Source of the DNA: Oscillospiraceae bacterium | GTDB taxonomy: Bacteria > Bacillota > Clostridia > Oscillospirales > Oscillospiraceae | Length of the DNA: 38,158 nucleotides | NCBI GenBank assembly: GCA_017519005.1 | Contig: JAFWTG010000103.1 | Span: 1-38,158 of the forward strand | Reading direction: 5' to 3' | Part shown: one piece after another, positions 1 through 11,401 of the stretch | Layout of the letters: each line of letters begins with the position of its first letter | Position numbering within the stretch: position 1 is the stretch's first letter | Notes under the pieces: generated by a model | What the model saw: only the letters and a program-made list of their open reading frames with translations | Told to the model about the DNA's origin: nothing | Databases searched by the model: none | Made by a program: the position numbers and the translations under genes

Positions 1-1608
1 ATCTGCGTGGTGGAGGTCAAGGGCGCCCGCGGCCTGTGCGCGGCCTGCGTGTATCCCATTGCCCCCAATATGGAAGTTTTCACCCACACCCCCCGCGTCG
101 TGGCCTACCGCAAGAAGACCCTGGAGCTGATCCTCTCCGATCACAACTGCTCCTGCCTGTCCTGCGTCCGCTCCGGCAACTGCGAGCTCCAGGCTCTGTG
201 CAAGGAGTACGGCGTTGAGAACGAGAACGAATACGCCGGCGCCAAGAACCCCTCCGAGATCGACGAGTCCGCCGCCCACATGGTTCGCGACAACTCCAAG
301 TGCATCCTCTGCCGCCGCTGCGTCGCCGCCTGCGAGAAGTTCCAGGGCATCGGCGTCATCGGCGCCAACGAGCGCGGCTTCAAGACCAACATCGGCTGCG
401 CCTTTGAGATGGACCTGGCCGACACCGCCTGCGTCTGCTGCGGTCAGTGCATCGCCGTCTGCCCCGTGGGCGCGCTGTACGAGAAGTCCTGCATCAACGA
501 CGTCTTCGCCGCCATCGCCGATCCCGACAAGTACGTGGTGGTGCAGACCGCTCCCGCCGTCCGTGCCGCCCTGGCCGAGGAGTTCGGCAAGCCCATCGGC
601 ACCAACGCCCAGGGCAAGATGGTGGCGGCCCTCCGCCGTCTCGGCTTCGACAAGGTCTTCGACACCAACTTCGGCGCCGACCTCACCATCATGGAAGAGG
701 CCAGCGAGTTCCTGGACCGCGTCAAGAACGGCGGCAAGCTGCCCATGATCACCTCCTGCTCCCCCGGCTGGGTCAAGTTCTGCGAGCACTACTACCCCGA
801 GTTCACCGAGAACCTGTCCACCTGCAAGTCCCCCCAGCAGATGCAGGGCGCCATCACCAAGAGCTACTTCGCCGAGAAGATGGGCATCGACCCCGCTAAG
901 ATCGTCTCCGTCTCCGTCATGCCCTGCACCGCGAAGAAGTTTGAGATCGGCCGCGACAACCAGGCCGGCGCCGGTCTGCCCGATATGGACTACACCATGA
1001 CCACCCGCGAGCTGGCCCGCATGATCAAGCGTGCCGGTATCCGCTGGGACGACCTGCCTGAGGAAGAGTACGATCATCCTCTGGGCTCCGGCACCGGCGC
1101 GGCCGTCATCTTCGGCGCCACCGGCGGCGTTATGGAGGCTGCTCTCCGCTCCGCCGTGGAATGGCTCACCGGCGAGACCCTGCCCCGTCCCGACTTCAAC
1201 GAGGTCCGCGGCGTGGAGGGCATCAAGGAGGCCACCTACCACGTGGCCGGCATGGACGTGAACATCTGCGTCGCCTCCGGCCTGGCCAACGTCCGCAAGG
1301 TCCTGGATATGGTCAAGAGCGGCGAGAAGAACTACCACTTCATCGAGTTCATGGCCTGCCCCGGCGGCTGCGTCAACGGCGGCGGTCAGCCCCAGGTCCA
1401 CGCCTCCGTCCGCAACTTCGTGGACATCCGCGCCGAGCGCGCCAAGGTGCTGTACTCCATCGACGAGGCCAACACCATCCGCAAGTCCCACGAGAACCCG
1501 GACATCATCGAGCTCTACGACAAGTTCCTGGGCAAGCCCGGCTCCCACAAGTCCCACGAGCTGCTGCACACCTCCTACGTCAAGCGCGTGGTGCATCAGA
1601 AGTTCTGA
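1..1608 (+). CDS. hydA: [FeFe] hydrogenase catalytic subunit, 5'-truncated by window edge
   Basis: Reversible H2 activation with ferredoxin and/or NAD(P) partners; cytoplasmic. The reading frame is open from base 1, so the start lies upstream; 535 residues are visible. Counting from base 1: the end of a 2Fe-2S domain (C2, C13, C16), a His-Cys3 4Fe-4S site (H48, C52, C55, C61), two 4Fe-4S ferredoxin motifs (CILCRRC and CVCCGQC), then the H-cluster domain with L1 TSCSPGW (C253), L2 MPCTAKK (C309) and L3 MACPGGCVNGGGQ (C453, C457). All H-cluster cysteines are present, so it should be active. The modular N-terminus matches HndD/HydA of multisubunit, often electron-bifurcating hydrogenases, whose NuoE/NuoF-like partners would lie upstream; that is inference. 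Codon use is strongly C-ending, as expected for high expression. Confidence 0.95.
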   Translation: MCVVEVKGARGLCAACVYPIAPNMEVFTHTPRVVAYRKKTLELILSDHNCSCLSCVRSGNCELQALCKEYGVENENEYAGAKNPSEIDESAAHMVRDNSKCILCRRCVAACEKFQGIGVIGANERGFKTNIGCAFEMDLADTACVCCGQCIAVCPVGALYEKSCINDVFAAIADPDKYVVVQTAPAVRAALAEEFGKPIGTNAQGKMVAALRRLGFDKVFDTNFGADLTIMEEASEFLDRVKNGGKLPMITSCSPGWVKFCEHYYPEFTENLSTCKSPQQMQGAITKSYFAEKMGIDPAKIVSVSVMPCTAKKFEIGRDNQAGAGLPDMDYTMTTRELARMIKRAGIRWDDLPEEEYDHPLGSGTGAAVIFGATGGVMEAALRSAVEWLTGETLPRPDFNEVRGVEGIKEATYHVAGMDVNICVASGLANVRKVLDMVKSGEKNYHFIEFMACPGGCVNGGGQPQVHASVRNFVDIRAERAKVLYSIDEANTIRKSHENPDIIELYDKFLGKPGSHKSHELLHTSYVKRVVHQKF

Positions 1609-1632
1609 GCTTCCAGACCCTAAGCTGAAGCG

Positions 1633-1670
1633 AATCACCTCCCGGTTTTTTCCGGGAGGTGATTTTTTTT
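1633..1670 (+). terminator. Rho-independent terminator after the hydrogenase
   Basis: A perfect 11-bp stem (TCACCTCCCGG at 1635-1645, CCGGGAGGTGA at 1652-1662) with a six-T loop is followed by a run of eight T. It ends the hydrogenase transcript just before the PadR operon promoter. Confidence 0.93.
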
Positions 1671-1681
1671 CAAAATAGCGC

Positions 1682-1710
1682 TTGACATACTTAGAGGATC
1701 GTGGTATATT
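1682..1710 (+). promoter_or_regulatory. SigA promoter of the PadR operon
   Basis: The -35 TTGACA (1682-1687) and -10 TATATT (1705-1710) are separated by 17 bp; the -10 is extended (TGG just upstream). It is the only obvious promoter for the five downstream genes. Confidence 0.85.
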
Positions 1711-1731
1711 GACCTTAGAGGTACTTAGAAC
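1688..1731 (+). promoter_or_regulatory. Candidate PadR operator: three CTTAGA repeats
   Basis: CTTAGAGG occurs at 1690-1697 (inside the promoter spacer) and 1714-1721 (start-site region), and CTTAGAA at 1724-1730. Their position over the promoter of a PadR gene suggests autoregulatory operator sites. The repeats are seen directly; binding is inferred. Confidence 0.5.
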
Positions 1732-1785
1732 TTCGATGCATCTTCTTTACGCACTTCAATCTATGAATTCCGGAGGTGATACAGC

Positions 1786-2124
1786 TTGAAAATCGACAAA
1801 AGTCTGCTCTCCGGCAGCACCTCGCTGCTGGTGCTGTCTCTGCTGCGGAGCGGGGACAAGTACGGCTACGAGATGATCGCCCTGCTGGAGGCCACGTCCA
1901 ACGAGGTCTTCCAGATGAAGGAGGGGACCCTTTACCCGGTCCTCCATAATTTGGAGAAGAAGGGCTTCGTCAGGGCCTACACCAAGGAGACCGACCAGGG
2001 CCGCACCCGCCGCTATTACGCCCTCACCGACAAGGGCGCCCGCCAGCTGGCGGACGAAAAAGAACAGTGGGAGGTCTTTTCCGGCGCGGTGAATTCCGTC
2101 CTGCGCCGGGCACTGGAGGCGTGA
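1786..2124 (+). CDS. PadR-family transcriptional regulator
   Basis: A 112-residue DNA-binding repressor. It shows the PadR winged-helix pattern: YGYEMIALLE, then EGTLYPVLHNLEKKGFV (recognition helix and wing), then RRYYALTDKG, and a short C-terminal helix. The start is TTG at 1786, chosen for the GGAGGTGAT ribosome site at 1772-1780. It is first in an operon with a HAAS-type membrane protein, and PadR-HAAS pairs are a recognised signalling arrangement in Firmicutes. It probably represses its own promoter through the CTTAGA repeats and responds to the downstream membrane protein; both points are inference. Confidence 0.93.
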   Translation: MKIDKSLLSGSTSLLVLSLLRSGDKYGYEMIALLEATSNEVFQMKEGTLYPVLHNLEKKGFVRAYTKETDQGRTRRYYALTDKGARQLADEKEQWEVFSGAVNSVLRRALEA

Positions 2125-2127
2125 ATT

Positions 2128-3534
2128 ATGGCAAACGAGACAAGACAGAAGCTCGGCGCAGCGCAGCGCTATGAGACGATGGAGAGCTGGGCCGACCAGG
2201 CCCTGCGGCGGATCTGGCTGCGGAAGGAGCGGGAAAAGCTCCGGACCGAGCTGATGGATCACTATGCCGACCGCTACGAAGCTTACCGGAGCTGCGGGTT
2301 CGATTCGGAGCAGTCGAGACTGCTGGCCGTCGAATGCATGGGAGACCCGGAGGAGACCGGCGCGCTGCTGGCCCGGGTTCATCAGCCGCTTCTGAGCCTG
2401 CTGCTTCGGATCGCCCGGGTGCTGGTTCTTTTGCTGGCGGTCCTTACGGTCTTCAGCTTCGCCAGGCACTATCTGTCCCTGCGCCCCCTGCAGAGCCTGG
2501 ACACCCAGACCATCGCGGAGAAGAGCCGCTCAGCGGACGACGGCGTCAGCCGGACCGCGGTGTGCAGACGCCAGGTCAGCGCCGACGCGCAGCTCCGCTT
2601 CGGAGATTTCACCCTCGCCTTCGAGACCGGCAGCTGCTGCCGTTATTCCGCAGTATATCGCGACCAACGCTACGGAAACGTCAGCTTTGGCATGAAAAAG
2701 GAATGTCAGGTGCTGCTGAGCTGGACCGGGAAGCCCTGGGAGCGGATGCCCACGGCCCTGGCGGAGCGCCTGCTTCGCGTGGAGGACAACCGCGGCGTGC
2801 AGTATCAGCCGCTCGCGGAGGATGCCGGGGCCGAAGGAGCCGGCTACCTCCTGCATACGGGCAGAATCCGGCCAAACGCCTGGGGCTCTCTGTTCAGCTT
2901 TTCCGGCATGGAGCAGGAACCCGACTGGCTGGAGTTCATTCTGAACGACGGCGGTACGGAGAAGCGCCTGCGGGTGCACTTTGCGCCCTGGGAAGCCAAT
3001 CGGAAGGAACTGGAGCCCGTGAAGAGTCTCGACAGAGCGGCGGAGACGCTGCGCGGGATGAAGCCGGAAAGCCTGCCCTACAGCATTTTCTTCGATGAAC
3101 AGGACAGCCGCGGGGCGTTGATCGAGGCGGAGGCCGTGGGGAAGCTCCGGTTGCTCTGGGCGCGGGAGACCGAATATCGGCTGGACGTGGACAAGCTGAA
3201 TACATACGTGTGGGAGCAGGATGCGGAGCTGGAGTACCCTCCCGATACGGCGGAGCTGGTGGAATGCGGTCTGCTAATCCGGGATTACCCGGACAGTTTC
3301 CTCATCGACCCGGAGCAGCTTGCGCAGCAGCTCCGCATTACCGCTGTGAAGTACGGCGTAGAGGCGGACTTCTGCATCGGCCGGAATCCGCTCTTCTATT
3401 CCGACGCCATCCTGTTCCGGCTGGATTGGATCCCGCTGGACGGGGAGCGCTATGAGCTGGTCTACACCGACCCCGTAAGCGGCGAGGCGTGGAAAACGGC
3501 CTTTGTGCTGGACAGAGAGGAGGACGCGCCGTGA
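2128..3534 (+). CDS. HAAS/permease-prefix membrane protein with large ectodomain
   Basis: 468 residues. Residues about 17-85 match the helical HAAS/permease-prefix pattern (SWADQALRRIWLRKEREKL, then an HYADRYEAY segment and MGDPEETGALL). One membrane span lies at about 90-111, followed by about 355 predicted extracytoplasmic residues of unknown family. The ATG follows the padR stop by 3 bases, with GGAGG at 2115-2119. The far C-terminus has VECGLLIRD and YELVYTDPVSGE, both echoed in the paralogue encoded at 4354-6108. The HAAS part should contact the PadR protein in the cytoplasm while the ectodomain senses something outside. This is inferred from family and topology; the ligand is unknown. 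Confidence 0.75.
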   Translation: MANETRQKLGAAQRYETMESWADQALRRIWLRKEREKLRTELMDHYADRYEAYRSCGFDSEQSRLLAVECMGDPEETGALLARVHQPLLSLLLRIARVLVLLLAVLTVFSFARHYLSLRPLQSLDTQTIAEKSRSADDGVSRTAVCRRQVSADAQLRFGDFTLAFETGSCCRYSAVYRDQRYGNVSFGMKKECQVLLSWTGKPWERMPTALAERLLRVEDNRGVQYQPLAEDAGAEGAGYLLHTGRIRPNAWGSLFSFSGMEQEPDWLEFILNDGGTEKRLRVHFAPWEANRKELEPVKSLDRAAETLRGMKPESLPYSIFFDEQDSRGALIEAEAVGKLRLLWARETEYRLDVDKLNTYVWEQDAELEYPPDTAELVECGLLIRDYPDSFLIDPEQLAQQLRITAVKYGVEADFCIGRNPLFYSDAILFRLDWIPLDGERYELVYTDPVSGEAWKTAFVLDREEDAP

Positions 3535-4322
3535 GAAAGCTGTTTCAACGGATGTCCAAGCGGACAATCCTGACGCTGGACGTGGGAATCGCTTTGCTTT
3601 TGCTGCTGGCGCTCTGGGTGCTGCTGGACTATCCCGCGATCACGGCCGCCGGGGCCTTTCGCCGCGGCCTGCGGGCTGCGAATCTGCCGCAGACCGGCAT
3701 GGAGCTGCGGGTAAACGACCTGGGCCTGGCTGCGGACGGGGAGAACTGCATGCTGGTTCGCCTGGGCTGGGACCGGGGCTGGCGCTATTACGACGCCTGG
3801 ACTGTCCCGGCGGCGGAGGGGCAGCTCTGGGCGGCCCTGAACTGGAATGCCGGCGTCGGGAGCGGCGCGGAGGAAGAAGCCGCCCCCGCCTTCGCGGAGG
3901 ATCTTCCGCCTGCCTCTGCGGAGAGTCGGGAGGGGGCCGCCTACGTCGAGGCGGAGACGCTGCCCGCCTTCGCGGTGAAGACGGACGAGGAAGCCGGACT
4001 CAGCCTGATCCTCTACGGGGACCCGGAGCCGGGAAGCCTGCCGGAAGAGATCGTCCGCATGGAGCTGGTCCCCCTGGAGCGCAAGGCGGGCTGGCTGGTC
4101 TTCGGTTTTGATCTGGAATACCTGCGTGCGTATTCCGGGAAGATCGGATACTACGATACCTGGGAACCGCCGGAGTATGAATTTGAAGCGCCCTGCGACA
4201 GCCTGGTTCGCTGGATGCAGAGCAGCCGCCCCGGTCGGCTCCCGGCCCAGGAGGCCTGGCTGGAGCTTTCCTGGACCGACGGCGCGGGTACGCCCCAGAC
4301 GCTGCGCTGGGCGCTGTCTTAG
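3531..4322 (+). CDS. Single-span anchored protein of the PadR cassette, copy 1
   Basis: 263 residues. GTG start at 3531 overlaps the upstream stop (GTGA), with GAGGAGG just before it. One N-terminal membrane span at about 12-32 precedes a predicted external domain of about 230 residues. I do not recognise the family. It is a paralogue of the protein at 6105-6899: both have AF-R after the span, a central P-FAVK segment, a later GW-F-F-Y/DLEYL or DYQDI segment and an LELSWTDG/LELTVWDENG end. Tight coupling to the HAAS protein suggests that the two ectodomains work together. Confidence 0.75.
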   Translation: MRKLFQRMSKRTILTLDVGIALLLLLALWVLLDYPAITAAGAFRRGLRAANLPQTGMELRVNDLGLAADGENCMLVRLGWDRGWRYYDAWTVPAAEGQLWAALNWNAGVGSGAEEEAAPAFAEDLPPASAESREGAAYVEAETLPAFAVKTDEEAGLSLILYGDPEPGSLPEEIVRMELVPLERKAGWLVFGFDLEYLRAYSGKIGYYDTWEPPEYEFEAPCDSLVRWMQSSRPGRLPAQEAWLELSWTDGAGTPQTLRWALS

Positions 4323-4353
4323 CGTCCGGAGCGGTGTGAGAAGGAGGCAGAAC

Positions 4354-6108
4354 ATGAAACGGAACTTACTTGCCGGGCAGCCCGACGCGCTGCCCGTGCT
4401 GAAGCTGCTGCGGCGCGCCCCGCTGTACGGCAGCGAGATTGTCGCAACGCTGGAGGCGGCGGGAGACCGCCGCTTTGCGGGACGCGAGGCCATGCTCTAT
4501 CCGCTGCTGTACAGCCTGGCGCGGCAGGGACTGGTCCGCTGGCGCAGGGGGGAGGAGAGCGTCGGGCACTTCCGACGGAACCGCTGGGAGCTGACCGGCA
4601 GGGGCAGAAAGCTGGTCGCCGGGGTCAAAACCGGGGAGCAGACGCCGCCCCCGGACGAAGCGCCGCCGCGTGCGGACGGGACGGAAGCCGCGGCACGGAA
4701 CGGAGTTCCGGACGAGGCGCCGCCGGAGGCGGGCGTCTCCGACTTTGAACGGTGGGTGGAGCAGGCCCTGCGGTCCCAGCGCTATCCGCCCCTGCGCCGC
4801 AGGCTCAAAAACGATCTGCTGGCCCACTATATCAGCCGCCGCATCGAGCTCCCCGGAGCAAAGTCGAGCCGGGAGAGCGGCGACGACCCGGCACTGGAGG
4901 CGCTGGGCGATCCGGAGGCGCTGGGCCGGGCGCTGCGGGAGCTTTACCCGCCCGCGCTGAGCTGGGTCCTTGCAGGCGCCCGCCTGCTGCTGCTCCTGGC
5001 GCTTGCTTTTCTGGTACTCATGCTGCGCCAGGGCAATCTGAGCGCAGAGAGTCTGGGCTTCATGAGCGAGCAAACGCTGCGCAGCCGGGTGGGGCTGGAA
5101 AAATACAACCAGCCGGAATACGAGAGTGCGCGGCAGCTGATTGCCCGCTGCAGCGTCCGCTTTGACGGGGAGGGGGAATTTGGCCCCTGGAAGGTCTCCT
5201 GTGAGGACCCCATCTATGAGCTGGCGTACCAGCGCTTATATACAAAGGAAGGAAAACGCTTGTATTATGAGCAAAGCGATCTCAAATGCCTTCTGATGCT
5301 GCGCTTCAGCGCCGCGCCCTGGCACCGTCTGGAATGGAAGACGATTTCCGAGGCGATCCATCTTTACGATGCGAGCGGGCAGGAGCTTCAGAAGTCCGAT
5401 TACCCGGATTATAGCCTCTGGCGGCCAACCTATGAGATCATCGCCTGCGAGCAGCTGCGGCCCGGGCAGAGTGTGGTCGTAATCAGCCTGAATTATCTAT
5501 GGAACCTGAAGCAAAAGCGCAATCTGAATTTGGAGCTCTGCCTGCGTCAGCAGGGACGGGAGCTGCGCTTCCCCGTGGAGCTGGGCAGCTGGCGCGTGCC
5601 GTATGAGACGTTTCCGATCATGGACGACGACCCGGAAGCGCTGCGGCGGCTGACCCTTCGCGACCTGAGCGATTGGAACCGATATGGCTTTGCCGTCGAA
5701 GCGAAGGCGGTGGCCCAGCGTCCGCTCACTGCCGCGGAGACGGATGGAGCGGACGGCGGCGCGCCGAGGCTTCTCTGGGGAACGCAGACGGCGTATCGGA
5801 ATGCGGAGGAGGAGGGAACGATCGTCGAGTGCGGGCTGCTGCTTCCGGCCGCGCCGACCGCTGAGCAGTCGAATCCGTATGCCGCAATACCTAAATGTTC
5901 CCTGAAGCAGCCGGCTTCGGACCCGGACGGCGAGAAGGAAACGACCATCGTATACAAGGAGTCTTCCTGGTATCGGGAGGGATGTCTGCTTCGGCTCAGC
6001 TGGCCGGGAAGGTCCGACGTGAGCGGCTATGAGCTGACTTATCGGGATCCAGAGAGCGGCAAGACCCGGACCCTGCGTCTGAATCTCGGAGAGGAGGCTG
6101 CGCCGTGA
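4354..6108 (+). CDS. PadR winged helix fused to HAAS membrane protein (membrane-tethered regulator)
   Basis: 584 residues. The ATG at 4354 follows AAGGAGG at 4341-4347; an upstream in-frame ATG at 4108 lies inside the previous gene, encodes unrelated sequence and is rejected. Residues 1 to about 90 are a PadR winged helix (YGSEIVATLE, AMLYPLLYSLARQGLV, NRWELTGRGRK). A Pro/Glu-rich linker follows, then a HAAS-like segment at about 129-198 (DFERWVEQALRSQRYPPLRRR, GDPEALGRAL), one span at 202-224 and an ectodomain of about 360 residues. It equals the two genes at 1786-3534 joined into one chain. The layout resembles ToxR/CadC one-component membrane regulators, but with a PadR reader head. Regulation across the membrane is inferred. 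Confidence 0.85.
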   Translation: MKRNLLAGQPDALPVLKLLRRAPLYGSEIVATLEAAGDRRFAGREAMLYPLLYSLARQGLVRWRRGEESVGHFRRNRWELTGRGRKLVAGVKTGEQTPPPDEAPPRADGTEAAARNGVPDEAPPEAGVSDFERWVEQALRSQRYPPLRRRLKNDLLAHYISRRIELPGAKSSRESGDDPALEALGDPEALGRALRELYPPALSWVLAGARLLLLLALAFLVLMLRQGNLSAESLGFMSEQTLRSRVGLEKYNQPEYESARQLIARCSVRFDGEGEFGPWKVSCEDPIYELAYQRLYTKEGKRLYYEQSDLKCLLMLRFSAAPWHRLEWKTISEAIHLYDASGQELQKSDYPDYSLWRPTYEIIACEQLRPGQSVVVISLNYLWNLKQKRNLNLELCLRQQGRELRFPVELGSWRVPYETFPIMDDDPEALRRLTLRDLSDWNRYGFAVEAKAVAQRPLTAAETDGADGGAPRLLWGTQTAYRNAEEEGTIVECGLLLPAAPTAEQSNPYAAIPKCSLKQPASDPDGEKETTIVYKESSWYREGCLLRLSWPGRSDVSGYELTYRDPESGKTRTLRLNLGEEAAP

Positions 6109-6899
6109 AGTATTATATGGAACGGATTCCCTGGCCCTGGAGGCTGGCGCTGGCCTTAGCACTGCTTCTGCTGCTTTATTCCGTGGTGTTCCTGGTCCTG
6201 TGTCAGTTTCCGCGTTCCGCGGACGCCGCCTTCTCCCGTGCCGTGGAGGACGCCGCCTGCGAGCCGGCGGAGCTGGAGCTGCTGCTGCCGGAGATCGAAG
6301 ACGATTACAGATACTCAAAGAGTCTCGGCATCGGAGCCGGAGAAAACTGGGCCTACCAGACCTGGCTGCGGAGAGACGAGCACGGGGCTTGGAGCAGCGA
6401 AATCGTTCGCAGCTATCCCGCTGTGGAGGAGGGGCTGTGGTGCGTCCCGGTGGATTGGATTTCTAGAAGCCTCGACAATCGATACGAAATCATGCGCGAC
6501 GACAACGGAGAGGGGTTTTTCCCCTGCTTTGCGGTGAAATGCCCCGGCGCCACCGCTTCCGCGCGTCTGGTGCTGGAGGAAGGCCACGTCCTGGAGCTTG
6601 ATACAAACGAAGAAAGATACGTCTATATTCCGGACGAGCAGTATCAACTGGTGCTGGACCGCGCGGAGAACGGCTGGTTTTTGTTCCGTTATGACTATCA
6701 GGATATCGAGCGCCATTTCCGGGTGCAGCAAACTGCGACAGGAACTTATGACGTCCTCGACGAACGCTATGAGCCTCTGCAGTACTGGGTCGGAGCCCGG
6801 GATGCCGAAGAAAAATACCGCCCCCACGCACACCTGGAGCTGACCGTGTGGGACGAGAACGGCCTGGAGCTGCGCCACACGCGCATTCCGCTGACCTGA
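6105..6899 (+). CDS. Single-span anchored protein of the PadR cassette, copy 2
   Basis: 264 residues. The GTG start at 6105 overlaps the previous stop by GTGA, preceded by GAGAGGAGG as at the 3531 junction. One span at about 13-33, then a predicted external domain. Homologous along its length to the 3531-4322 product (AFSRAVEDAACEPAELE, PCFAVK, ENGWFLFRYDYQDI, LELTVWDENG). Family not recognised. It is the last gene of the operon and is followed by two strong hairpins. Confidence 0.75.
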   Translation: MKYYMERIPWPWRLALALALLLLLYSVVFLVLCQFPRSADAAFSRAVEDAACEPAELELLLPEIEDDYRYSKSLGIGAGENWAYQTWLRRDEHGAWSSEIVRSYPAVEEGLWCVPVDWISRSLDNRYEIMRDDNGEGFFPCFAVKCPGATASARLVLEEGHVLELDTNEERYVYIPDEQYQLVLDRAENGWFLFRYDYQDIERHFRVQQTATGTYDVLDERYEPLQYWVGARDAEEKYRPHAHLELTVWDENGLELRHTRIPLT

Positions 6900-6945
6900 G
6901 CCGGCGGCCGGGAAAATGATTCCCGCAGAAAGAGAAATAGTTAAC

Positions 6946-6996
6946 GCCCGCGACCCCGCAATTTCTGCCTGCCGCAGAAATTGTGGGGTCGCGGGC
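6946..6996. terminator. 23-bp hairpin after the PadR operon
   Basis: Arms 6946-6968 and 6974-6996 pair over 23 positions with one G-T wobble and a 5-base loop. There is no clean T-run, but place and stability suggest a termination or 3'-end stabilising role. Confidence 0.6.
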
Positions 6997-7070
6997 AGTT
7001 CTTTGACAGTCTGAAAGGCAATTGGAACGATACCGCAATTCTGAATGCTCAATTTTTGTCATATGCTGAA

Positions 7071-7118
7071 GCGGCGCCCCGGAGCGCCTTCCGCAAGGAG
7101 GGCGCTCCGGGGCGCTGC
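7071..7118. terminator. 22-bp GC-rich hairpin with GCAA tetraloop
   Basis: Arms 7071-7092 and 7097-7118 pair almost completely, with wobbles, around the GNRA-type loop GCAA (7093-7096). It sits between the 3' ends of convergent operons, so it may act on both. No T-run follows. The rest of 6900-7195 holds no gene. Confidence 0.55.
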
Positions 7119-7195: not shown

Positions 7196-9550
7196 TCAGG
7201 ACTGCTCTGTCGGCTGCGCGGCTTCCTCCGCCGCGATTTCCTCCGCTTCCCCGCGCTCTGCCGCGGCGCTGTCCGGATCAGGCTGCTCCGCCTCGGCGGG
7301 GTCTACCGCGGGCTGCTCCGCCTCGGCAAGCTCCGCGGCTCTTCTGGCGGCGGCCAGCCGGTCCAGGATCCGCTTTTCGCGGCTCTGGCAGGTGAAGATC
7401 AGCACCTGCCGGGTCTTGCTCAGCTCCCGCAGGGTCTCCAGAGCCAGGGCAATCCGCTTGTCGTCGAAGTAGACCAGGGCGTCGTCCAGTATGATGGGGG
7501 CGTCGGGGATCAGCAGCTCGCAGATGGCCAGCCGAAGCGCCAGATAGAGCTGGTCCACGGTGCCGCCGCTGAGATAGGACAGCGGACGGAAAACCGCGCT
7601 GTCGGCGGGGTGGACCATGACGTGCAGATTCCGGTCCAGCTGGATCTTGTCGTATTTCCCGCCGGTGAGCCTGGAAAACAGCTCGCCGGTTTTCTGGCAC
7701 AGCACGGGTGCGAAGCGGGCGCGCAGATTCTCGTCCGCCTCCATCAAGGCCCGGCGGGCCAGCCGAAGGGCCGCGTAGCGCTCCTCCATGCGCTGAATCA
7801 TCTGATCCAGGGCGTCGCGCTGGGCTTCGATCTCCGCGGGGTCTCCCATCTGCCCGACGGCGCCGGAGAGCTTGTCGGCCTTGGAGGCGGTCTCCTCGAT
7901 CTGACGGTCCAGCTCCTCGAGGCGCTTCTGCTCGGTCTCCCGGTCGCGGTCCGCGAAGCGGGACGCGTCGGGGAGCGGCTCCTGCGGCTCGCCCACGGCG
8001 AAGCGGAGCTCATCAAGCTGCTCCTGCCGCTGCTGCTCCAGCAGCCGGGCCTGGGCCAGAGACTGCCGGGACTGCCGGGCCTCCTGGAAGAGGAGGGCGG
8101 CCTTCTCGTCGCTGCCGCTGCCGGGCATCAGCTGCTCCAGCCGCTCAAAGACCGCGCTGCGGCGGTCGGCCAGCGCTTCCAGCTCCCTGCGCTTGGCAGC
8201 CTCGCCGGAATCCTGCGCCAACTCCCGTTCGCGTTCCTCCAGCCCGTTGATATAGGCGATGCCGCGAATCACGACGCCCCGGGGATTCTTGGCCCCGTAC
8301 TGCAGCAGAATGGCGCGGGAGCGCTTCTGCAGCTCCAGATAGGCGTCCTTGCGGCGGTTGAAATCCACGCGCTGCCAGATCCAGAGCCCCAGCCCTGTCA
8401 GGGCGAGGGCGACGCCGGCGATCACCAGCGGCAGCAGCTTGGTAAACGAGCCCGCGAAGCCGATCCCGAGACCGGCAAGGATCATGAGATACCAGGGCAG
8501 CGCGGTCTTCCGCCTGGGCCGCTTCGCGTCGCGGGCCTCCTGGACCAGCGTGGCGTCGGCGGCGGCCTTGTCGTGGGCCTCCTTGGGGCCCATGCGCTCG
8601 AAGATCGGGTCCGGCTCCGGCAGCTCCAGCTCGGAAATGCTCAGGCCCTCCTCCAGGGCGACCCGCTGCAGCTCCGTCTGCAGCTGCTGCAGCTCCGCTT
8701 CGAGCTCCTGCAGCAGGCTTTCGTCGGGCAGCTCCGCGCAGACGGACTCCCAGCCCTCCCGGTCCTCCCGGGCCTCAGCCAGGGCGGCCTCCGCGGCGCT
8801 GACGCGGTTCATCCGCTCCTGCCGGTCCAGGGCGTCCAGACCGCCCAGAACCTCGCGGCATTCCTCCCGCTGCGCTTTGAGTTCGGTGAGCTCCGCCTGC
8901 AGCGCCTCCAGCTGACGCCTGCTTCGCTCGATTTCCGCCAGTCTGGCAGCCGCGTCCGCCCGGGCCTGCTCGGCGCGGGGCAGGGCGCCGCTGCGGTTGT
9001 GCCGGAGGGCGATCTGCTGCTTTTTCAGCTTCTCGTCGACCTCCGCGTAGGCGTAATCCTCGTTGCCTGCGGTCACAAGTCCGCTCAACCGCCGCTCCAG
9101 CAGGGCGTCGGCGGAGACGGAAATCCGCTGCTGGCGCAAATAGGCGCTGCGGGCAAAGACCGCGGCCTCCACGCCCAGCAGAGTCTGTCCGCAGGTTCTG
9201 CCGGTCAGATCCTCCCGAGGCGTGCCGGTGCCGCTGTCCCAGGCCCGGAAATCCCCCATGGGCGAGCTCTCGCTGCGGCGCTCAATGGTGACGGAGCGGC
9301 CGTTTGCCAGCAGCTCCAGCGTACCGGCCATGGGCTTGCCGTTCCAGGGCTGGAATTTCACCTTGTCCGGCAGGCGGCCGGCCTTGACGCGGTCCTTGGT
9401 GTCCACGCCGTAGAGCATGGCCAGCAGGAAGGCCAGCCAGGTGGATTTTCCGGCCTCGTTGTCGCCGCTGATGACGTTCAGCCCGGGCCGGAGCACCAGC
9501 TCCCGGTCGTTCAGCTTGCCGAAGCTGGCGCGCATGCGTTGGATAATCAC
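7196..9550 (-). CDS. YhaN/SbcC-like coiled-coil ATPase with central membrane hairpin
   Basis: 784 residues; partner of the adjacent SbcD-like nuclease. Walker A GDNEAGKST at 29-37, two long coiled coils, the ABC signature LSGGT at about 660-664, Walker B IILDDAL at about 686-692 and a switch segment LIFTCQS. Two hydrophobic stretches at about 350-394 break the coiled coil; Bacillus YhaN is also a membrane-associated member of this Rad50/SbcC class. The C-terminal 50 residues are an Ala/Glu-rich tail. GTG start at 9550 overlaps the nuclease stop by 4 bases, so the two are probably made in fixed ratio. Role in DNA end processing or repair is by family. Confidence 0.85.
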   Translation of the reverse strand: MIIQRMRASFGKLNDRELVLRPGLNVISGDNEAGKSTWLAFLLAMLYGVDTKDRVKAGRLPDKVKFQPWNGKPMAGTLELLANGRSVTIERRSESSPMGDFRAWDSGTGTPREDLTGRTCGQTLLGVEAAVFARSAYLRQQRISVSADALLERRLSGLVTAGNEDYAYAEVDEKLKKQQIALRHNRSGALPRAEQARADAAARLAEIERSRRQLEALQAELTELKAQREECREVLGGLDALDRQERMNRVSAAEAALAEAREDREGWESVCAELPDESLLQELEAELQQLQTELQRVALEEGLSISELELPEPDPIFERMGPKEAHDKAAADATLVQEARDAKRPRRKTALPWYLMILAGLGIGFAGSFTKLLPLVIAGVALALTGLGLWIWQRVDFNRRKDAYLELQKRSRAILLQYGAKNPRGVVIRGIAYINGLEERERELAQDSGEAAKRRELEALADRRSAVFERLEQLMPGSGSDEKAALLFQEARQSRQSLAQARLLEQQRQEQLDELRFAVGEPQEPLPDASRFADRDRETEQKRLEELDRQIEETASKADKLSGAVGQMGDPAEIEAQRDALDQMIQRMEERYAALRLARRALMEADENLRARFAPVLCQKTGELFSRLTGGKYDKIQLDRNLHVMVHPADSAVFRPLSYLSGGTVDQLYLALRLAICELLIPDAPIILDDALVYFDDKRIALALETLRELSKTRQVLIFTCQSREKRILDRLAAARRAAELAEAEQPAVDPAEAEQPDPDSAAAERGEAEEIAAEEAAQPTEQS

Positions 9551-10632
9551 AGCTCCGGCACCTCCCGTCCTTCCATTACGGCCACCCCCAGCCGGGCGGC
9601 CTCAGCCACGAGACGGCGCGCGTCCCGGTCTGTGTCGGCGTCATAGCATTCCTTCAGCTGGCGCAGGAATTCGCCCTTCAGGCTGTCCTCGCCGGCGTCC
9701 TTCCAAAGCTCCAGCGGGGGCAGGGTCTCGTCGATCAGCTCCAGCGCGTAAAAGCGCGAATCCAGCGCCGCGTGCAGCTGATCCGGGTCCGGCGTCGGAC
9801 AGTCTCCCACCAGCCGGATCCGATAGAGGTCCCGCTCCGTCTTCTCGGGCAGGGCCGCCTGAATCGCGGCCAGGGGATCGCCCTCCACGCGGACCGTCAG
9901 GGATTCGTAGACTCTGGCGCCCAAATCCACGGGGAAGAGGCGGCAGCCGTTCTCGTCCAGCTCCGCATAGACCGCGCCCTTGGGACCGGTCTCGTCGAAG
10001 CCCCGGCCCATGGCGCAGCCGGGGTTCACCACGGTGGTTTTCCCCACGACGCGCTCCTGGCGGCGGTGGACGTGGCCCAGGGCCAGATAGTTGACGCCGG
10101 AGGCCGCGATCTGCTCCTCCGAGATGGGATTGTAGCGGGAGTTCGGGTCGTCCAGGGTTCCGTGGATCACCAGCACCGAGAGCGCGCCGTCGTCCGCCGC
10201 GGAAAAGCCCTCCAGCAGGCTCCCGGCATGGGGCTCGGTGAAGGCCGCGCCGTAGACGGTCACGGCGGGCTGCTCCAGCCGGACGGCCTCCGGAGCCGTG
10301 GAGCGGAAAACGTGGACGTTGTCCGGCCAGGAGAGGGTGGCGTAGGGGGAGCCGGGCGACCAGGGATCGTGGTTGCCGGGGGCGATAAAGACCTGCGCCC
10401 GAAGTCCGCCCAGGGCTTCGCAGAGCAGCTCCGCGGTCTCCTGATAGATCTGGTCGGAATCAAAGAGATCGCCGGCGAGGAGCAGAAGGTGGCAGCTCCG
10501 CAGACTGCATTCGTCGGCCAGCTGCCGGACGATCTGCCGCTGCTCCTCCCGACGCTGGGCGGACTGCTCCGGCGGCAGGGAGGCGAAGGGACTGTCCAGA
10601 TGAAGGTCAGCGGCGTGCAGGATTCTGATCAT
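9547..10632 (-). CDS. YhaO/SbcD-like metallophosphoesterase (DNA repair exonuclease)
   Basis: 361 residues from the ATG at 10632, chosen because MIRILHAADLHLDSPF is the family N-terminus and GGAAAGGAT precedes it; the frame remains open upstream to 10680. Motifs of the two-metal phosphoesterase fold are AADLHLDSPF, GDLFDSD, GNHDPW, VIHGTLDD and LGHVHRRQ. The C-terminal part should form the cap that binds the YhaN-like ATPase. Its start overlaps the end of ymdB by 26 bases, so all three genes form one operon. Confidence 0.88.
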   Translation of the reverse strand: MIRILHAADLHLDSPFASLPPEQSAQRREEQRQIVRQLADECSLRSCHLLLLAGDLFDSDQIYQETAELLCEALGGLRAQVFIAPGNHDPWSPGSPYATLSWPDNVHVFRSTAPEAVRLEQPAVTVYGAAFTEPHAGSLLEGFSAADDGALSVLVIHGTLDDPNSRYNPISEEQIAASGVNYLALGHVHRRQERVVGKTTVVNPGCAMGRGFDETGPKGAVYAELDENGCRLFPVDLGARVYESLTVRVEGDPLAAIQAALPEKTERDLYRIRLVGDCPTPDPDQLHAALDSRFYALELIDETLPPLELWKDAGEDSLKGEFLRQLKECYDADTDRDARRLVAEAARLGVAVMEGREVPEL

Positions 10633-11401
10633 AATAGCAGATCCTTTCCGTGTGTGTACAGATTCCGGTTTTTGCGTCAAGGGTAAAGAGGACGCTCTCC
10701 AATTTGCACGGTCCCTCGGGGACCTCGTAGCGGCTGTTCAGACCGCCTCGGAAGGTCGCGATGGACTGCTCGACGCGAACGCCGATCACCGAGTGGATCG
10801 GCCCGGTCATGCCCAGGTCCGTCACGTAGCCGGTTCCACCGGGAAGGATCTGGTCGTCCGCGGTGGGGACGTGGGTGTGGGTGCCCCAGAGGGCCGAAAC
10901 CTTCCCGTCCAGGTGGTAGCCCAGAGCCAGCTTTTCAGACGTGGCCTCGGCGTGGAAATCCACCAGAATGAGCCGGGTGTCCAGCTCCTTCAGCAGGCGC
11001 TCGGCCAGCAGAAAGGGATTGTCCGGCCCGAAATTCATGCCGCAGCGGCCGATCAGGTTCAGCACGGCCACGCGCCCGGCCCGGGTGTCGTAGACGCCCA
11101 GACCCCGGCCGGGAAAGAGGGGAGAGTCGTTGGCGGGGCGCAGGATGAAGCGGCTTTCGTCCAGATAGGAGGCGATCTCCCTCCGGTTGTAGCTGTGGTT
11201 GCCCAGGGTGATCACGTCGGCGCCCGCGTCCAGCATTGCTTCCGCCTGCTTCGGGGTCAGCCCCACGCCGGAGGCATTTTCTCCGTTCACAACGCAGAAA
11301 TCCACGGCGTGCTCCCGCCGGAGCCGCCGCAGCTCACGCTGCAGCAGCCGCAGACCCGGCGCGCCGCAGACGTCGCCCACGGCCAGTACCCGCAGCTCCA
11401 T
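10607..11401 (-). CDS. ymdB: YmdB-family metallophosphoesterase
   Basis: 264 residues, the usual length for the TIGR00282/YmdB family. Metal-binding segments: GDVCGAPG, NGENASG, GNHSYNRREI, DFHAEATSEK and GTHTHVPTADD. In Bacillus subtilis YmdB is a cyclic-nucleotide phosphodiesterase that affects the switch between motility and biofilm; the role here is by homology. ATG at 11401 follows GAAGGGGGTG. First gene of the ymdB-yhaO-yhaN operon, served by the minus-strand promoter at 11435-11463. Confidence 0.9.
   Translation of the reverse strand: MELRVLAVGDVCGAPGLRLLQRELRRLRREHAVDFCVVNGENASGVGLTPKQAEAMLDAGADVITLGNHSYNRREIASYLDESRFILRPANDSPLFPGRGLGVYDTRAGRVAVLNLIGRCGMNFGPDNPFLLAERLLKELDTRLILVDFHAEATSEKLALGYHLDGKVSALWGTHTHVPTADDQILPGGTGYVTDLGMTGPIHSVIGVRVEQSIATFRGGLNSRYEVPEGPCKLESVLFTLDAKTGICTHTERICYYDQNPARR

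Follow-up and report, generated by a model that had tools for sequence, protein, structure and literature searches.

The window analysed here is a 38,158-nucleotide contig (JAFWTG010000103.1, assembly GCA_017519005.1) of an Oscillospiraceae bacterium, contig C109 of a draft genome that spans 2.29 Mb and is 86% complete. Reading of its open reading frames (ORFs) reveals five codirectional genes at positions 1786–6899, in the order padR, BIG1, SMALL1, PadR-BIG2 and SMALL2, the names BIG and SMALL denoting the larger and the smaller of two paired single-span proteins. The cassette is bounded by a promoter, with its −35 element at 1682, and by a terminator-like hairpin at 6948–6994 (Table 1); promoter-like sites number 2 against 0.8 in shuffles, and terminator-like sites 7 against 4.4. 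A 20-base piece of the downstream hairpin arm has no second match in the genome at 2 mismatches. At both BIG/SMALL junctions the stop codon of BIG overlaps the start codon of SMALL in a GTGA. An earlier note on this DNA had proposed a five-gene operon carrying a duplicated cassette, and the five ORFs, the single promoter and the terminator-like hairpins bear this out.

Table 1 Features of the operon and its boundaries in the window (aa, amino acids; Ig, immunoglobulin).
Feature	Position	Strand	Remarks
Terminator-like hairpin	1632..1665	+	14 pairs, T tail; behind the [FeFe] hydrogenase gene, sets the operon apart
Promoter TTGACA-17-TATATT	1682..1710	+	sigma-70-type, 11/12 matches, TG before second hexamer
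PadR-operator-like site 1, TACTTAGAGGATCGTGGTA	1688..1706	+	directly behind −35, extends to −10; exact pattern match
PadR-operator-like site 2, TACTTAGAACTTCGATGCA	1722..1740	+	1 mismatch to search pattern
padR, stand-alone PadR repressor, 112 aa	1786..2124	+	TTG start; PF03551 E 2.5e-24
BIG1, 468 aa	2128..3534	+	ATG start; NF038403 33.9 bits, cut-off 30
BIG1 HAAS/permease-prefix helices	about 2178-2391	+	helices at residues 18-84, before span (AlphaFold2 model)
BIG1 membrane span, single	about 2389-2475	+	
BIG1 predicted Ig-like domain 1	about 2545-2997	+	AlphaFold2
BIG1 predicted Ig-like domain 2	about 3250-3525	+	AlphaFold2; low-confidence linker between Ig-like domains
SMALL1, 263 aa, N-terminal membrane span + ectodomain	3531..4322	+	GTG start, overlaps BIG1 stop (GTGA)
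PadR-BIG2 fusion, 584 aa	4354..6108	+	ATG behind AAGGAGG; PF03551 E 6.2e-10; BLASTP to BIG1 E 5e-16
BIG2 PadR winged helix	about 4354-4623	+	PF03551
BIG2 Pro-rich linker, in place of padR C-terminal stretch	about 4624-4737	+	
BIG2 HAAS-like helices	about 4744-4953	+	by homology to BIG1 only
BIG2 membrane span	about 4966-5022	+	ectodomain follows
SMALL2, 264 aa	6105..6899	+	GTG start, overlaps BIG2 stop (GTGA)
Terminator-like hairpin behind operon	6948..6994	+	20 pairs

The PadR winged helix is recognized by PF03551 in both padR (85.5 bits) and the N-terminus of BIG2 (39.4 bits), against a cut-off of 27, and the two align directly (BLASTP expectation (E) value of 1e-14, 38% identity). In a PADLOC search padR alone matched (Csa3, 5.8e-6; PDC-S27, 0.007), which we read as a shared helix-turn-helix (HTH). 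BIG1 and BIG2 are homologous (E value of 5e-16, 25% identity over 482 columns). The helical prefix that had been noticed in the two large proteins is indeed shared by them, and its proper name is HAAS, or permease prefix domain 1. Across BIG proteins the HAAS models NF038403 and PF22564 match 49/51 and 26/51 members, respectively. In the GxP motif of the third HAAS helix, G72 is present in 51/51, and residue 74 is proline in 27/51 and alanine in 23/51; the motif reads GDP in both window BIGs. No permease domain was matched behind the prefix in Pfam or NCBIfam, and each window BIG has one hydrophobic span. The AlphaFold2 model of BIG1 has a predicted local distance difference test score (pLDDT) of 77.2 and a predicted template modelling score (pTM) of 0.65.

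The SMALL2 model (AlphaFold2 pLDDT 86.4, pTM 0.81) comprises a membrane span, a cystatin-like α-β domain (residues 37–107) and an Ig-like domain (residues 107–264), and has VIA matches. Direct comparison of SMALL1 with SMALL2 is weak (BLASTP E value of 0.038), and a profile built on 17 SMALLs of different loci, from which the window and seven long-form loci of its genus were excluded, picks up both in a search of their own genome (E values of 4.9e-8 and 7.5e-6, one genome). The relatedness of the two copies is confirmed for all three parts. In trees of long BIG and SMALL proteins the window copies are not resolved as sisters (open forks, long branches).

Pfam searches on the five window proteins, 51 BIG and 48 SMALL proteins assigned only HAAS and PadR. 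Stray hits were taken as chance: Apq12 in 2/51 (best 8.3e-4), Mre11_2nd in 2 (0.03), Inhibitor_I42 in 1/48 (0.013), PycTM (0.045) and single others, with two further single strays on members in NCBIfam (0.005–0.006). No known transporter or sporulation family, which the note had named as an outcome that would count against it, was matched in either database. Profile searches of the Protein Data Bank gave nothing below an E value of 0.08. The Foldseek check proposed for the ectodomains returned nothing for SMALL2 at E ≤ 0.001 and, for BIG1, one IsdB row (4.8e-5) that we disbelieve (template modelling score 0.14–0.18, root mean square deviation 20); a family missing from such results is not thereby ruled out. 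MPT63/DUF4352-like secreted sandwich domains were considered as a candidate fold for BIG ectodomain 1. An internal duplication of the BIG ectodomain is plausible by eye; local profile comparison gave it a probability of 6.7 (long forms) or 2.2 (all), and we make no claim of it. Comparison of BIG and SMALL Ig-like profiles gave 1.23 or less.

The cassette recurs in relatives. BIG1 matches occur in 17 of 99 relatives' genomes, the source genome included, mostly through the prefix part outside the genus, and in 6/23 other genomes within it. A scan of named genomes yielded 28 loci, including Oscillibacter, Lawsonibacter, Dysosmobacter and rumen Oscillospiraceae; with the window and eight loci picked from hits, some of them for their SMALL match, these make up a set of 37 loci containing 62 BIG genes. 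A PadR gene lies within 12 genes of 61 of the 62, and a SMALL-sized gene follows 56, of which 50 match the SMALL profile; without the eight picked loci, 47/51 BIG genes precede a SMALL-sized gene. The junction is able to overlap by 4 nucleotides in 52/56 cases. The arrangement of PadR, HAAS–transmembrane (TM)–ectodomain and TM–ectodomain genes was found in loci of several named genera. Arrays hold one to five BIG genes, and tandem BIG/SMALL pairs stand in many of the loci read, so that the duplication in the window, real as it is, is one case of a wider habit. Of the six BIG genes without a SMALL, three encode short HAAS proteins and have PadR as the next gene (L075, L077, L078), and for the other three (L080, L109, L113) no further gene was called on the contig piece or strand. 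Each of the short HAAS–TM proteins has its own small PadR and no SMALL (L075 5456–6259, L077 890–1648, L078 1634–2440), and in these three genus members it precedes a PadR/BIG/SMALL unit.

The dyad TACCTAGA-N2..4-TCTAGGTA was sought in the upstream regions of 30 operons. At least one operator-like site is present in 29/30 and at least two in 24/30, compared with 14% and 1.2% in shuffles, which control composition only; in the 27 upstreams with a recognized promoter, a site begins 6 nucleotides after the start of the −35 element in 26 and 7 nucleotides after it in one. Within the source genome the pattern TACNTNGANNWTCNNNGTA has one exact match, at 1688–1706; at one mismatch it is found at 1722–1740 and in four other places, all within predicted ORFs, and the reversed control pattern has 2 matches. 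Because the matches outside the operon all lie within ORFs, the operon's own promoter is the sole promoter found with such sites. From these dyads we infer an autorepressed surface-protein operon; repression of the own promoter is a trait of several PadR family regulators, though not of all.

Divergence is distributed unevenly along the cassette. Twenty-six PadR–BIG units were compared, 11/37 having been dropped because they had no recognized HAAS end. Over the 325 pairs, median identities are 57% for PadR, 39% for HAAS, 30% for the ectodomain and 28% for SMALL. PadR is at least 85% identical in 34 pairs, and in 19 of these the ectodomains share 45% or less. In chosen close pairs PadR is 88–98% and HAAS usually about 80–90% identical, and the span, ectodomain and SMALL are 31–47% identical. 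Identities of ectodomain and SMALL vary together across the 34 close pairs (Spearman 0.87, or 0.84 with PadR and HAAS removed). Across all 56 units the coefficient is 0.33, a value reached in 1/1000 within-locus partner shufflings, and nearest neighbours agree for ectodomain and SMALL in 20/56, compared with 13/56 for HAAS and SMALL.

The change is located at the HAAS/TM boundary. Between L077 and L078, both of the window's genus, PadR is 98% and HAAS 82–92% identical (depending on the cut used), TM plus ectodomain 34% and SMALL 47–52%, and nucleotide identity falls from >90% to about 50% at this boundary. In L092/L100, L092/L094 and L089/L100 it drops to about 33–52% within two successive 60-base steps. 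Loci L092, L100 and L089 are syntenic, with flanking genes on both sides matching at 80–99% (only matches above 60% counted; an additional gene precedes PadR in L089), and L092/L089 are less diverged (ectodomain 54%, SMALL 52%). Silent sites, taken as fourfold-degenerate sites of identical residues, were compared in nine pairs, with chance matching of 34–39%. PadR plus HAAS lies well above TM–ectodomain plus SMALL in six pairs; two others fall in between, and in the last the order is reversed. In five of the six, which were chosen for contrast and share loci, matches are 80–86% against 45–59% (Fisher p of 6.4e-5 to 2.3e-6), and in one of these five, L098/L099, HAAS itself is only 54% identical. 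The reversed pair, L087/L093, has 92% in ectodomain plus SMALL, 83% in PadR plus HAAS (p 0.033) and 81% in the flank (p 4.8e-4). Since divergence in place should not scramble the silent sites of one portion of an operon and spare the rest, this suggests that the ectodomain/SMALL block was replaced between some relatives while PadR, and usually HAAS, stayed. The window shows such a swap only loosely, because its HAAS diverges too: against G017, G020 and G002, silent sites match at 82–85% in the hydrogenase gene, 65–71% in PadR and 39–61% in the BIG/SMALL parts including HAAS.

Two natural fusions bear on how the parts may act together. In one metagenome-assembled genome (MAG), a 778-amino-acid frame joins the BIG and SMALL ectodomains (L076 4307–6643, the same as L037) and is followed by a separate SMALL that is 82% identical to the fused part; both ectodomains would be left outside, which fits a BIG–SMALL complex. 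The other is BIG2. The C-terminal stretch of padR is probably the dimerization helix of PadR proteins, and in BIG2 its place is taken by the Pro-rich linker. A scan for PadR–HAAS fusions in 400 family genomes scored some candidates per genome. Among the matches listed that span PadR and most of HAAS, the window's BIG2 is the sole fusion; all the others contain an intervening stop (12 in other genomes, and the window's own padR/BIG1). Long frames hinting at fusions in G432, G314, G437, G332, G272 and G006 proved on reading to be separate genes.

The surroundings of the cassette are partly conserved. A group A6 [FeFe] hydrogenase gene lies upstream in the window (7–1608) and precedes the cassette in 5/7 carrying genus members (window, G002, G017, G020, G022); in the remaining two it was not found, the first called gene lying at most 1.4 kb from the contig start. 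A functional link is doubtful because a terminator-like hairpin separates the two in the window. On the minus strand at 7196–10680, genes for an SbcC/Rad50-like ATPase and an SbcD/Mre11-like phosphoesterase adjoin the operon, with matches above Pfam and below NCBIfam cut-offs. Elsewhere the cassette always stands next to a 485-amino-acid gene that is 91–99% identical between loci (L092 9539–10996, with counterparts in L085, L087, L089, L093, L096, L098, L099 and L100) and presumably resembles an oxaloacetate decarboxylase or pyruvate carboxylase subunit. A scan of the order found SMALL matches in 4 genomes of one other family, and a SMALL match within a 517-amino-acid ORF (L114) was discarded as chance.

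Toastrack is the DUF4097 fold, and TIGR03433 PadR proteins pair with permease-prefix permeases. Against TIGR03433 the padR of the window reaches 99.7 bits, under the cut-off of 101.8, and BIG1 matches the same prefix model, NF038403; unlike the partner permeases, BIG spans the membrane once and matches no permease. PspC, LiaI-LiaF-TM and Toastrack/DUF4097 have no Pfam match in the five window proteins at E ≤ 1. In the sections of the 2024 paper drawn on here, HAAS is defined and said always to have a stand-alone PadR-like protein encoded in its neighbourhood, and the HAAS–PadR dyad is proposed as an alternative to two-component systems, with no ligand named (PMC11237479); the excerpted part of a second paper repeats the model, in which a stimulus releases PadR (PMC12419801). 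The cassette is like this dyad in that the membrane protein next to PadR carries a HAAS/permease-prefix helical domain at its N-terminus. The partners given in those sections are PspC, LiaI-LiaF-TM, Toastrack, FtsX/MacB, FtsW/RodA, VanZ, pentapeptide repeats and uncharacterized 6TM, 4TM and 2TM domains (PMC11237479), whereas here they are a single-span predicted Ig-like ectodomain and a second single-span ectodomain protein, the pairs are often tandem, and PadR, stand-alone there, is once fused to HAAS.

Among Listeria PadR repressors, as far as the portion of the source used here goes, two control mainly their own operons, and LltR-lmo0600-lmo0601 (PadR, DUF1700, DUF4097) is an autorepressed operon (PMC6624303). 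The lmo0599-lmo0600-lmo0601 order of PadR, HAAS-type (DUF1700) membrane protein and second surface protein resembles that of the window, as would a repressor acting mainly on its own operon, here judged from the operator-like sites; lmo0600 is instead multi-spanning and lmo0601 a DUF4097 protein, and neither Pfam domain was matched in the window proteins. The comQXPA loci of Bacillus, described in the part consulted as highly polymorphic with lowest diversity in the regulator ComA (PMC4008528), offer a works-like analogy only: a polymorphic locus with a conserved regulator. The pherotype-like pattern here, a constant regulator with varying receptor ectodomain and partner, is seen between species in chosen pairs. 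The cassette has neither a peptide pheromone nor an isoprenyl transferase, and it lacks a kinase and a response regulator; SMALL is an anchored protein. No account of the BIG/SMALL pair or its variability was found among top-ranked open-licence PubMed Central literature. The claim of an undescribed system is not supported for the system as a whole: the HAAS–PadR dyad had been published (PMC11237479, PMC12419801). No published BIG/SMALL pair was found in the literature covered. The PadR–HAAS switch was thus already known in outline in 2024, and what appears new is the fused PadR–HAAS together with the ectodomain pairs, which look exchangeable. Neither the apparent exchange between relatives nor the unusual nature of the fusion could be read from the sequence alone.

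We favour, with a probability of roughly two in three, an autoregulated PadR–HAAS signalling operon, its chief output being the surface proteins that it encodes. PadR would repress the operon by binding both sites across the promoter, as the operator-like dyads indicate, and the cytoplasmic HAAS helices of BIG would bind PadR and relay the outside state, in line with the published HAAS model. BIG and SMALL, with one span each, would join their Ig-like and cystatin-like domains in a cognate complex outside the cytoplasm, a proposal drawn from the gene overlap, the co-variation in close pairs and the one natural fusion. A ligand or an envelope disturbance at the complex might then alter the hold of HAAS on PadR and change surface-protein expression, in either direction. 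In some relatives the ectodomain pair would have been exchanged as a block, with PadR and usually HAAS kept, as silent sites in a few chosen pairs indicate; this suggests that the extracellular partner is variable. The window may have gained a second unit, and that the fused PadR of this unit, which is without padR's C-terminal stretch, serves as a tethered partner or decoy of the free PadR is a guess. The single envelope-sensing circuit proposed in the earlier note is reasonable, given one promoter, two operator-like sites and one operon, and should keep its conditional form.

Several observations weigh against this signalling operon. The operator motif and its position were drawn from the same promoters. 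P74 of the GxP motif is proline in just 27/51, and NF038403 did not match BIG2. The strong correlation of 0.87 comes from 34 close, non-independent pairs that share members, and over all 56 units ectodomain–SMALL (0.33) falls below HAAS–SMALL (0.40). Within the window HAAS has diverged no less than the ectodomain (27–43% identity, silent sites 40–56%) and is not constant there. The BIG–SMALL fusion comes from a single draft MAG and may be a recent tandem-copy deletion or an assembly artefact. A SMALL profile matches in only 19/300 family genomes (E ≤ 0.001), and another in only 8/295 genomes of the order, the source genome counted each time. At 86% completeness of the genome, other targets may be missed.

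Plain envelope-stress homeostasis is a possible though not the favoured account, in which the surface proteins support or mend the envelope, the state of the membrane, and not a ligand, serves as the signal, and the ectodomain differences are fast drift under weak constraint. Published HAAS–PadR systems accompany PspC, Toastrack and LiaI-LiaF in the sections drawn on (PMC11237479), the two Listeria regulons confined mainly to their own operons (PMC6624303) point the same way, and in G022 the ratio of non-synonymous to synonymous substitution (dN/dS) between the fused SMALL and the separate one is 0.69, which denotes weak constraint. Yet dN/dS between G002 and G022 is 0.38 for BIG and 0.32 for SMALL (within G022, its two units give 0.47 and 0.40; 0.08 and 0.15 for PadR in two comparisons), and neither PspC nor DUF4097 was matched among the five window proteins. 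The drop at the HAAS/TM boundary, where silent-site matches fall as well, from 80–86% to 45–59% in five chosen pairs that share loci, is unlike in-place drift, as is the excess of silent-site matches in the L087/L093 ectodomain plus SMALL over their flank.

An account in which BIG serves as an anti-repressor and forms no direct complex with SMALL, itself a separate surface protein transcribed along with BIG, seems unlikely: the better correlation of HAAS than of the ectodomain with SMALL over all pairs would agree with it, and it is opposed by the possible 4-nucleotide overlap in 52/56 units, the partial correlation of 0.84 in the 34 close pairs and the one natural fusion of both ectodomains. 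The BIG2 fusion could instead be a decaying duplicate with no regulatory role, a suggestion we hold tentatively and do not prefer. Its linker in place of the C-terminal stretch, its HTH residues AMLYP where padR has GTLYP, and the failure of NF038403 on its HAAS speak for decay; its intact 584-amino-acid frame, a PadR match above the Pfam cut-off and the intact overlapping SMALL2 speak against it.

A bolder reading, which we consider rather improbable, makes the BIG ectodomain and SMALL a cognate receptor and partner occurring in discrete, horizontally exchanged 'ectotypes' on a constant PadR–HAAS switch, for membrane-anchored, protein-based discrimination of self from non-self cells or for sensing a variable phage, bacteriocin or host molecule. 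If this were true, a system of gut Firmicutes would adjust how the pair itself is displayed, several specificities would be kept in tandem arrays of 1–5 pairs, and the PadR–HAAS fusion of the window would be a one-protein, membrane-tethered version.

For the favoured signalling operon, the relatives provide a natural experiment, in that very similar PadR and HAAS are joined to ectodomain pairs sharing about a third of their residues, and the fused PadR–HAAS offers a single chain for asking whether HAAS and PadR touch. The cassette would be a compact version of the HAAS–PadR system with soluble ectodomains, carried by gut and rumen relatives, in which ligand identification and sensor swapping are testable.

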